Under the pieces are notes generated by a model that saw only the letters and a list, made by a program, of their open reading frames with translations, was not told the DNA's origin and ran no database searches. 33,375 nucleotides of DNA from a virus, in the IMG/VR virus record IMGVR_UViG_3300048625_000195, positions 1-33,375 of that record. One strand, 5' to 3'. Position numbers and translations under genes: made by a program. Positions 2,252 through 4,186 of the stretch are shown piece after piece (the stretch's first letter is position 1; every line of letters starts with the position of its first letter).

Positions 2252-4186
2252 TTATGCTACTTTGAAGATATCTCCACCTGTGTTAACAAGCCTTCCATCA
2301 TCAACTAGCTTATCAATCTGCTTGCTGATAGTTCCTTTGTTATTCTTGCCTGTCTGCTTCATACGAGGATTCCAGATTTCAGACTTCCTGAATGTTTCCA
2401 ACTCAAGAGAAACTATGAATTCATACAATGAGTCAAGTTCAATCTGAGGATCAGATGTGAAATTCTGTGAACGACTGCTTTTCACAGGCTCTTCATACTT
2501 TTCATACTCTGCTGTTGGCTCATTCATAGTTTCATATGAACTGTTCATACCTTCATACTGTGAATTCATATCTGTGAATTTCGTACCAGCTTCAGTAGTC
2601 TTGTAGTTTTCATACGCCTGACCTAGAGCTGCGGCTGTTGTCTTATCCATAGGAGTACGGAACTGAGCACCTTCAATAACAGCCTGCTCTAGAAGCCTAC
2701 GATCAATCTTATCTGTCTTTAGCTGGTTACCTAGCATGTCCTGGTTTAATCCACGAATGTCTAGGTAGAAGGTTCCAGGGAAATTATCCTTTAATGTGTG
2801 AGGCATAGCAGGAGTCTCACCGAATACAATCTTAGTATCGCCTGAGTTCTTCAGACCGAAACACAATGTTCCACCAAGGTTGTAACGAAGTGAAGTAGGA
2901 ATACAGTCGTGAGTAATTCTCTGAAGACTGTAGACAACTACAATTCCAGCAGAACGAGACTCAGCAATAATCCTAGTTACTCTAGCTAGGTCTGACTTAG
3001 AGAATGTGTCCTTATCCATAAGTCTTGCTGCTTCTTCGATATGAAGGATTAGCAAGTTAAGTCCACAACCAGGAGCCCAATTTTCAAGGTCCATATTTGC
3101 TAGCCAAGTTGAACGAGCCTTAATCGCACGCTCTACGCTTTCAAACATAGCCATGCTTTCTTCTGGTCCATTAGCGAACCATGAAATACCTGAAAGCAAA
3201 GGCTTAACAGTCTGAGTACCCTTAGCTAGGTCAGCATAAAGGACAGATACTTCCTTACGGTTCAATACAGATCCGTAAACTGACTGCCATCCGTAAGACT
3301 TACCTGAACCACTCATTCCAGCAGTTAAGTAATGCTGAGAAGATCCACCATTCTTACCACCAAGATAAAGCTGAGGACGAGAACCAATATCATAAGTAGC
3401 AAATTCAATAGGTTCTGCAATGCTAGTTCCTGGCTTGAATGGTCCTGACCAAACTACAGGATTAGCGAAAGGCAGGTCATCAAAGATATCTACATAAACT
3501 GTAGTAGGATCATCGCTGTTTCCCCATACACGAATCCTTGATACAGCTACTCCGAACATCTGAGCTAGTTTATCTGTAGCATTCTGGAAATCCTTCAGAG
3601 TAACACCTAACTTAGGCTTGATCCTTACTCGCTTTCCTTCAGCGCCAGGAATAGGACCAGCACCCATAGGGATTGTAGTATCTCCTAAACCAATCTCACC
3701 GTAAGGATTAACCTGCTGTGCTGGTTCTGGATGCTGGAAGTTCTTGAAGCTCCATCTACGTCCCATCCAAGTAAATGCAATAAGCCCTGCACCTAGAATG
3801 AATAGTCCTAGACTTACCTGGCTGAACATCCATTCAAGCGGCTGATCGTTTAAAGCAATGATCATCCAGATAACACCTAATGCTGTGCTTACTGTAGGAT
3901 GGAATCTGATAAGAACTTCATTTCCCTGTTCACCTCTACGCTTGTAGAACTTGTAGATGAATAAACAAGCAATAGCACCACAAACAGCTAATCCCCAAGT
4001 CCAGAATTGTGTAGGTGGTAAGTTACCGAAGAAATGATAATTGAACCACATAATAATTCTCATCAGTGCAACAAATCCAAATACGACTGCTGAACCTTGA
4101 GCCATCATAATGTAAGGCTTGTTATCGTTGTAAACCATTTCAACTGTGTCATTAGCAAAGTTGATGTTTCTTGTGTTGTCTGCCAT
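2252..4186 (-). CDS. FtsK/SpoIIIE/TraB-like membrane DNA translocase
   Basis: The 644-aa protein is a predicted hexameric double-stranded DNA pump of the FtsK/TraB type. Four hydrophobic segments lie near residues 25-48, 60-80, 98-112 and 124-141. The motor carries Walker A (GMSGSGKS, about 290-297) and a Walker B-like strand ending I-E-E (about 380-385), with Glu where Asp is usual. A polar linker (about 525-580) leads to a C-terminal winged-helix-like domain (about 583-644), the position used for DNA sequence recognition in FtsK gamma and TraB. A strong ribosome site (AAAGGAG) precedes ATG 4186. The gene appears monocistronic, with its own terminator. The linker codons contain many TATGAA hexamers matching the array at 1581-1880. 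Streptomyces TraB moves plasmid DNA between mycelial cells; the analogous role here is inference. Confidence 0.9.
   Translation of the reverse strand: MADNTRNINFANDTVEMVYNDNKPYIMMAQGSAVVFGFVALMRIIMWFNYHFFGNLPPTQFWTWGLAVCGAIACLFIYKFYKRRGEQGNEVLIRFHPTVSTALGVIWMIIALNDQPLEWMFSQVSLGLFILGAGLIAFTWMGRRWSFKNFQHPEPAQQVNPYGEIGLGDTTIPMGAGPIPGAEGKRVRIKPKLGVTLKDFQNATDKLAQMFGVAVSRIRVWGNSDDPTTVYVDIFDDLPFANPVVWSGPFKPGTSIAEPIEFATYDIGSRPQLYLGGKNGGSSQHYLTAGMSGSGKSYGWQSVYGSVLNRKEVSVLYADLAKGTQTVKPLLSGISWFANGPEESMAMFESVERAIKARSTWLANMDLENWAPGCGLNLLILHIEEAARLMDKDTFSKSDLARVTRIIAESRSAGIVVVYSLQRITHDCIPTSLRYNLGGTLCFGLKNSGDTKIVFGETPAMPHTLKDNFPGTFYLDIRGLNQDMLGNQLKTDKIDRRLLEQAVIEGAQFRTPMDKTTAAALGQAYENYKTTEAGTKFTDMNSQYEGMNSSYETMNEPTAEYEKYEEPVKSSRSQNFTSDPQIELDSLYEFIVSLELETFRKSEIWNPRMKQTGKNNKGTISKQIDKLVDDGRLVNTGGDIFKVA
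2358..2614 (-). repeat. TATGAA hexamers embedded in the translocase gene
   Basis: On the plus strand TTCATA starts at 2358, 2420, 2492, 2501, 2523, 2531, 2544, 2552, 2565 and 2609, and TATGAA at 2414 and 2535. From 2523 to 2565 the steps alternate 8 and 13, giving a 21-bp period. In protein this is a heptad MNSxYEx. The hexamer arises in two codon registers (xxT-ATG-AAy for Met-Asn and TAT-GAA for Tyr-Glu), so the protein repeat alone does not explain it. Confidence 0.85.

Follow-up and report, generated by a model that had tools for sequence, protein, structure and literature searches.

Introduction

Why should the gene of a DNA pump be written with a short word that also fills a separate stretch of non-coding DNA close by? 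The question is raised by a viral genome from IMG/VR (record IMGVR_UViG_3300048625_000195), the whole of which, 33,375 bases, was analyzed here and is referred to as the window. The gene in question (2252..4186, minus strand) encodes a TraB/FtsK-like DNA translocase of 644 amino acids, and the word is the hexamer TATGAA.

The two ends of the window overlap by 220 bp (1-220 and 33156-33375) at 98% identity. This overlap, which contains four mismatches, makes it probable that the genome is complete, either circular or circularly permuted, with ends that derive from slightly different molecules. It carries SPP1-like portal, terminase, tape-measure, and collagen-like tail-fibre genes, and the closest matches to its terminase come from Microbacterium and Streptomyces actinobacteriophages (31-36% identity). 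The genome, possibly that of a phage-plasmid, combines portal, terminase, tape-measure, and tail genes with a TraB-like gene and a DUF2637 gene. No match to an integrase, ParA, or Rep was found among the window proteins that were scanned, some genes having been left unscanned.

Results and Discussion

The Word Arrays of the Window

TATGAA occurs 53 times in the whole record, against 27±5 expected, and 29 of these copies are concentrated in two stretches, 17 in non-coding DNA and 12 at the 3' end of the translocase gene. The non-coding array (1581..1880, both strands) consists of 10 plus-strand and 7 minus-strand copies accompanied by TGTGAA variants, and lies ca. 0.4-0.7 kb past the translocase stop, about 0.5 kb from the intragenic array. 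The latter (2358..2614, minus-strand gene; 10 copies on the coding strand and 2 on the opposite one) mostly occupies the part that encodes the linker between the motor and the winged helix, with steps of 8, 13, 9, and 22 bp. All 12 copies fall in the last 420 nt of the gene, while the preceding 1,515 nt contain 1.

On the minus (coding) strand the word is found at 2492, 2501, 2523, 2531, 2544, 2552, 2565, and 2609, and on the plus strand at 2535. The spacing 2523-2531-2544-2552-2565 is thus 8, 13, 8, and 13 bp, and that of 2492-2501 is 9 bp. Every match and every 8-, 13-, or 9-bp step given for this region in the first-pass annotation is present in the DNA, as are the two codon registers described there, namely TAT-GAA (Tyr-Glu) and xxT-ATG-AA (Met-Asn/Lys), to which copies in reverse orientation have to be added. 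Further copies at 2358, 2414, and 2420 make the intragenic array larger than that annotation stated.

The intragenic copies could in principle be a by-product of a repetitive Tyr-Glu/Met-Asn linker peptide combined with codon bias. The 7-residue repeat of the linker (MNSQYEG MNSSYET) does by itself yield some copies, but it does not account for the whole count. In a synonymous null, in which the protein was kept fixed and the codons were resampled from the genes of the same genome (5,000 trials), the last 420 nt are expected to contain 3.4±1.4 copies, with a maximum of 9; none of the 5,000 recodings reaches the 12 observed. The earlier inference that amino-acid repetition is insufficient is thereby borne out. 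The by-product explanation also has to cope with copies that occupy two registers and both strands, and the comparison with relatives given below leaves it practically no room.

Co-variation of the Words among Relatives

A search of viral contigs and isolated phages with the whole translocase returned no homologue. Relatives were instead reached through the terminase (G002, IMGVR_UViG_3300012891_000001, 33.7 kb) and through a motor-only alignment (G007, record L132, 34.1 kb; G008, record L134, an 8 kb fragment; G009, record L135, 22.7 kb). Searches with the C-terminal piece alone, with a wider motor alignment, and with the neighbour gene added no further members, and the family discussed here therefore rests on five records, the window and these four. 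G002 and G009 have exact 123-bp terminal repeats and therefore look complete. A search of viral contigs for TATGAA at 9-bp steps gave at least 119 contigs, presumably mostly by chance.

Each phage has its own word. The window has TATGAA (17 non-coding copies and 12 at the translocase 3' end), G002 has TATCAA (25 and 12, respectively), and G008 has TRTGAA (24 and 14). The densest arrays of G007 and G009 sit instead within DUF2637 genes, in the linker-encoding part: 30 copies of TGTAAC in G009 (L135:10390-11310; 7.8 expected under synonymous recoding), and 19 copies of TGTTCG in G007 (L132:6200-6862; 3.4 expected), where 15 more are packed into 150 bp of adjacent non-coding DNA. The synonymous null is rejected in all five array-carrying genes. 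The matrix of words against regions is near-diagonal, with 0-3 foreign words per region, the sole exception being the expected overlap of TATGAA and TRTGAA between the window and G008.

The comparison of the window with G002 is the most direct, and corresponds to the alignment of homologues that had been proposed as a check. Identity between the two translocases is 37% over the whole protein and falls to 23% in the linker. Despite this drift of the protein, the position of the hexamer array and its 8/13 steps are unchanged, while the word is not. Both arrays differ together, TATGAA in the window and TATCAA in G002, in the gene and in the non-coding DNA alike. The peptide tracks the DNA word, with Tyr-Glu/Met-Asn in the window becoming Tyr-Gln/Ile-Lys in G002 exactly as the separate non-coding array changes, which is not what a peptide by-product would give. 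Amino-acid repetition as the sole cause of the array is ruled out by this co-variation together with the synonymous null. The alternation of 13 and 8 bp is also seen in G009, in a different gene and with a different word. The case that would have refuted the idea, a homologue that keeps the peptide while breaking the hexamers, was not encountered: the only relative that keeps AEYEKYE, G008, keeps the hexamers too. Selection acts here on the DNA, the coding sequence being preserved as a word array.

The 21-bp phase originally ascribed to both arrays fares less evenly. In the coding arrays of the family there are 12 same-strand pairs at 21 bp, against 3.0±1.5, and none of 2,000 shuffles reaches 12. 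In the non-coding arrays, the phase is only marginal (6 pairs against 3.6±1.6, p=0.12; p=0.05 when 20-22 bp are allowed).

The Translocase and Its Winged Helix

The translocase is composed of four predicted N-terminal transmembrane helices, an ATPase motor, a linker, and a C-terminal winged helix. Residues 91-585 match the NCBIfam model plasmid_TraB (NF041214) with E=2.5e-71, and the proteins of all five phages match this model. The score of 241 bits is well below the equivalog cut-off of 800, and the protein is therefore a TraB relative rather than an equivalog. Other matches are phrog_24831 (E=3.4e-51) and, by profile, FtsK in the PDB (E=8.9e-9). The identity to TraB of Streptomyces plasmids is about 27%, and 81 plasmid records match, 50 of them from Streptomyces. 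Judged by these matches, the translocase and TraB, the pump of Streptomyces plasmids, are related but diverged.

The structure model of the whole protein is poor (pLDDT 49), and only the C-terminal domain (residues 579-644; 2255..2452, minus strand) is modelled well, with a pLDDT of 85.9 and winged-helix matches in the PDB. This domain is homologous to the winged helix of TraB, as seen from GK-SKSWICSQIDKW in the former and GR-DRSWVSKQMKRL in the latter; the aligned motif, G[KR]xxxSW[IV]xxQ, is clearest in G008. The alignment with TraB winged helices places the predicted recognition helix at residues 617-629 (2300-2338, minus strand).

A natural domain swap is provided by G002 and G007, whose motors are 93% identical while the linker and winged helix are only 26% identical; their words, TATCAA and TGTTCG, differ. 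Overall winged-helix identity does not, however, track the word, since the domains of G007 and G009 are 51% identical with words that differ in three bases, and those of the window and G002 are 34% identical with words that differ in one. The third residue after the helix Trp, at the position that tracks base 4 of the word in the TraB plasmids described below, is Lys in the window (K622, TATG), Ser in G008 (TRTG), and Thr in G002 (TATC).

The Words of TraB Plasmids

We have collected 22 TraB plasmid regions (L150-L171), 18 of which have an assignable word. The first 400 bp past the traB stop of these 18 plasmids contain 4-10 copies of TGTCAG, TGTGCG, or TGTGAC, and many of the copies follow one another at 7-13-bp steps. 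The closest plasmid relatives of the translocase likewise have repeated TGTCAG/TGTGCG words beside traB. The published clt repeats of pJV1, CCGCACA (TGTGCGG), and pWTY27, TGACACC (GGTGTCA), are matched, those of pWTY27 having been footprinted with TraA (PMC3583192). Since NBC1508, S. virginiae, and pFRL2 have GGTGCGC words, which do not fit TRTNNN, a universal TRTNNN rule is not claimed.

The first-pass annotation had likened the intragenic array to clt repeats at the 3' end of traB. The kinship to TraB and the repeated words by traB support the analogy, whereas the location does not, the plasmid words lying downstream of the stop and not in the 3' coding end, whose last 420 nt hold at most 1 copy in the 18 plasmids. 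The intragenic placement is therefore peculiar to these phages among the elements examined. One criterion of a TraB/clt system, element-specific short repeated words beside the motor gene, is fulfilled by the phages; another, a position directly downstream of traB, is not fulfilled by their main arrays, which lie at the gene 3' end, ca. 0.4-0.7 kb past the stop, or in the DUF2637 gene.

In 16 plasmids, a Lys or Arg third after the helix Trp goes with TGTG (6/6) and a Gly or Ala with TGTC (10/10). The correlation is post hoc and based on related sequences, and Thermobispora, pFP4, and the second S. globisporus plasmid were left out as doubtful or duplicate. This relation between the third residue and base 4 may be a piece of the TraB recognition code. 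It supports, but does not prove, the putative role of the winged helix as the reader of the word. For pSVH1, word reading has been attributed to helix 3 of the winged helix (PMC3583192); for the phages, the evidence for such a contact is indirect and consists of this correlation and of the C-terminal swap that goes with a change of word.

Array B and the DUF2637 Gene

A second kind of repeat, here called array B, is located at or just past the translocase stop in all five phages, with a period of about 11-12 bp (L009:1378-1480; L134:6537-6640; L135:9360-9470; L132:9530-9610). In the window it consists of CCTAAAACC repeats at about 11-12 bp and multiples thereof (2150..2260), and its role is unknown. 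The array B word follows the type of the translocase C-terminus, CCTAAAACC/CCTARRAC with type I and CCTAGGAAT with type II. It is array B alone, with its different word, that occupies the clt position of the plasmids.

This raises the alternative that the translocase reads array B, while the hexamers are read by the HTH-like tail of the DUF2637 membrane protein and give an extrachromosomal phage genome its centromere or a tether to the membrane. Such a division of labor is in keeping with the clt-like position of array B at the translocase stop and with the dependence of its word on the C-terminal type. The arrays inside the DUF2637 genes of G007 and G009, whose product has its own HTH-like tail, point the same way, as do the DUF2637 C-terminal tails of the window and G002, which are similar and go with similar words. 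However, three of the five phages have the array in the translocase gene, and the DUF2637 genes of the window (30326..31195, minus strand; the homologue of the array-holding gene of G007 and G009, also with a C-terminal HTH-like tail) and of G002 have none, TATGAA being absent from the former; the G008 record is too short to tell. The array B words, moreover, are without the TRT core of the plasmid words. DUF2637 genes adjoin traB on many Streptomyces plasmids, a point in favor of the TraB/clt reading given below. Those of the TraB plasmids hold only 0-1 copies of TGT words, and the known Spd membrane protein SpdB2 binds DNA without sequence specificity (PMC4170104). We consider this alternative unlikely and favor the translocase as the reader, because the hexamers share the TRT core and the spacing of the TraB plasmid words and because the plasmid DUF2637 genes lack them.

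Neighboring Genes and a Dispersed Element

On the far side of the non-coding array lies a conserved gene of unknown function (1..1322, minus strand), ca. 56-59% identical in G002 and G007 and without any Pfam or PHROG match. Divergent from the translocase gene is a gene (4323..4757, plus strand; 47% identical in G002) whose product has a zinc-ribbon/HNH-like part and a winged helix and is a possible alternative DNA-binding protein.

This protein is weakly similar to DnaD-like loaders and replication initiators, and repeated short sites adjoining replication genes are what iterons look like. The arrays might then be replication-origin iterons read by a plasmid-type initiator such as this one. 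Yet arrays are present in G007, which lacks a homologue of the 4323-4757 gene, and in G009, where the match to it is limited to 39 residues. Iterons would also account neither for the match to the TraB clt words nor for arrays in two different genes whose products are membrane components of a transfer module. We regard an origin function as quite improbable.

An unrelated observation concerns a dispersed 22-bp element, TACTGTTGTTAGTNCCGCTAAC, of which the window contains eleven exact copies (0 expected) in both orientations, mostly intergenic, at 39, 288, 1888, 4768, 10024, 10078, 17201, 22895, 24497, 27425, and 33194. The copies at 39 and 33194 fall within the terminal overlap, and within gene 1-1322 the element is read as ITVVSAAN. 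Its first half (CTAGGATTACTGTTGTTA) is common to relatives while the second half is genome-specific, with the variants TGTAAAACCTTTT in G002 and GTCAGAAAACTCT in G007 and G008; no element of this type was found in G009. It is operator-, promoter-, or terminator-like and remains unexplained.

Proposed Mechanism

The reading that we consider likely, in the absence of binding data, is that the translocase recognizes the TATGAA words as its sites, in a phage version of TraB/clt in which the winged helix reads TRTNNN. It builds on the demonstrated word excess over codon use, the co-variation of the word between stretches, the C-terminal swap, the TraB kinship, and the winged-helix fold. What is inferred is that the protein binds the words, that it assembles on the array, and that the purpose is to transfer or segregate an extrachromosomal phage genome. 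The C-terminal winged helix would recognize the word, here TATGAA, and the spacing of the many copies, 8-13 bp and in some places two helical turns, would allow several subunits to be loaded. The translocase ring would then assemble on the array DNA and pump the double strand across a membrane or septum. Two loading stretches would be available, the non-coding array and the one inside the linker-encoding part of the motor gene, where the peptide would bend to the DNA; in G007 and G009 the intragenic stretch lies inside the gene of the DUF2637 (Spd-like) membrane protein instead. Each lineage would have changed word and reader together, and therefore each pump would address its own genome.

The purpose of the module may be transfer from cell to cell, segregation, or intramycelial spread of a putative extrachromosomal prophage. 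A more far-reaching proposal, which we find almost as easy to believe as to doubt and advance only tentatively, is that of a hypervariable self-address. The pump and its word arrays would co-change between close relatives, once by a C-terminal swap, and part of the address would be overprinted in the pump gene or in that of its membrane partner. In this way, the phage genome could pass as double-stranded DNA to another cell (or to both daughters), and related elements would not be moved.

The comparative evidence is of interest as a case of coding sequence held as an array of DNA-binding sites, binding being inferred: the peptide adapts to the word, which varies in step with that of a non-coding array outside the gene. 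The evidence also suggests that tailed phages make use of a plasmid-type machine for double-stranded DNA transfer. The natural motor/word pairs (TATGAA, TATCAA, TGTTCG, and TGTAAC in the phages; TGTCAG/TGTGCG in the plasmids) could let the recognition code of the TraB winged helix be read directly.

Comparison with Known Systems

FtsK with its gamma domain and KOPS, and SpoIIIE with SRS, are FtsK-superfamily motors in which a C-terminal winged helix recognizes a short DNA word and thereby directs the motor. The phage system shares the motor type, the C-terminal winged helix, and the short word, its reading being inferred. KOPS are polar and chromosome-wide, whereas the phage words are on both strands, form dense local arrays, and differ between close relatives.

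Closer is the TraB/clt (TRS) system of the Streptomyces plasmids pSVH1, pJV1, pWTY27, and pSN22 and of actinomycete ICEs, which has a TraB-family motor with an N-terminal transmembrane part and a C-terminal winged helix, and, next to the gene of this motor, element-specific words of 6-8 bp, many of which follow one another at 7-13-bp steps (PMC3583192, PMC4170104). An Spd/DUF2637 membrane gene is nearby in both cases, and most of the plasmids examined have TRTNNN words. The phage system differs in that it sits in tailed phages, with AT-rich words in three of the five, in that it has 12-30 copies per stretch as compared to 4-10 in plasmids, and in that an array lies inside coding sequence, that of the translocase linker or the DUF2637 gene. 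That a plasmid module may carry a DNA-binding site in its own coding sequence is known from the sps site inside spdA2 of pIJ101, which is however a single conserved palindrome read by SpdA2 and not a lineage-specific word array (PMC4170104). FtsK/SpoIIIE-like translocases of mycobacteriophages and Bacillus phages (phrog_1358) also place an FtsK-superfamily ATPase in a phage genome, but the match is confined to the motor, with 25-28% identity over a part of the protein that ranges from a quarter to less than half.

No published phage case of TraB/clt was found in the literature searched. The feature itself is real and strongly supported. On the reading that we consider likely, it is a new form of a TraB/clt-like address system, carried by tailed phages, in which the words are specific to each lineage and one of the arrays is overprinted on a gene.
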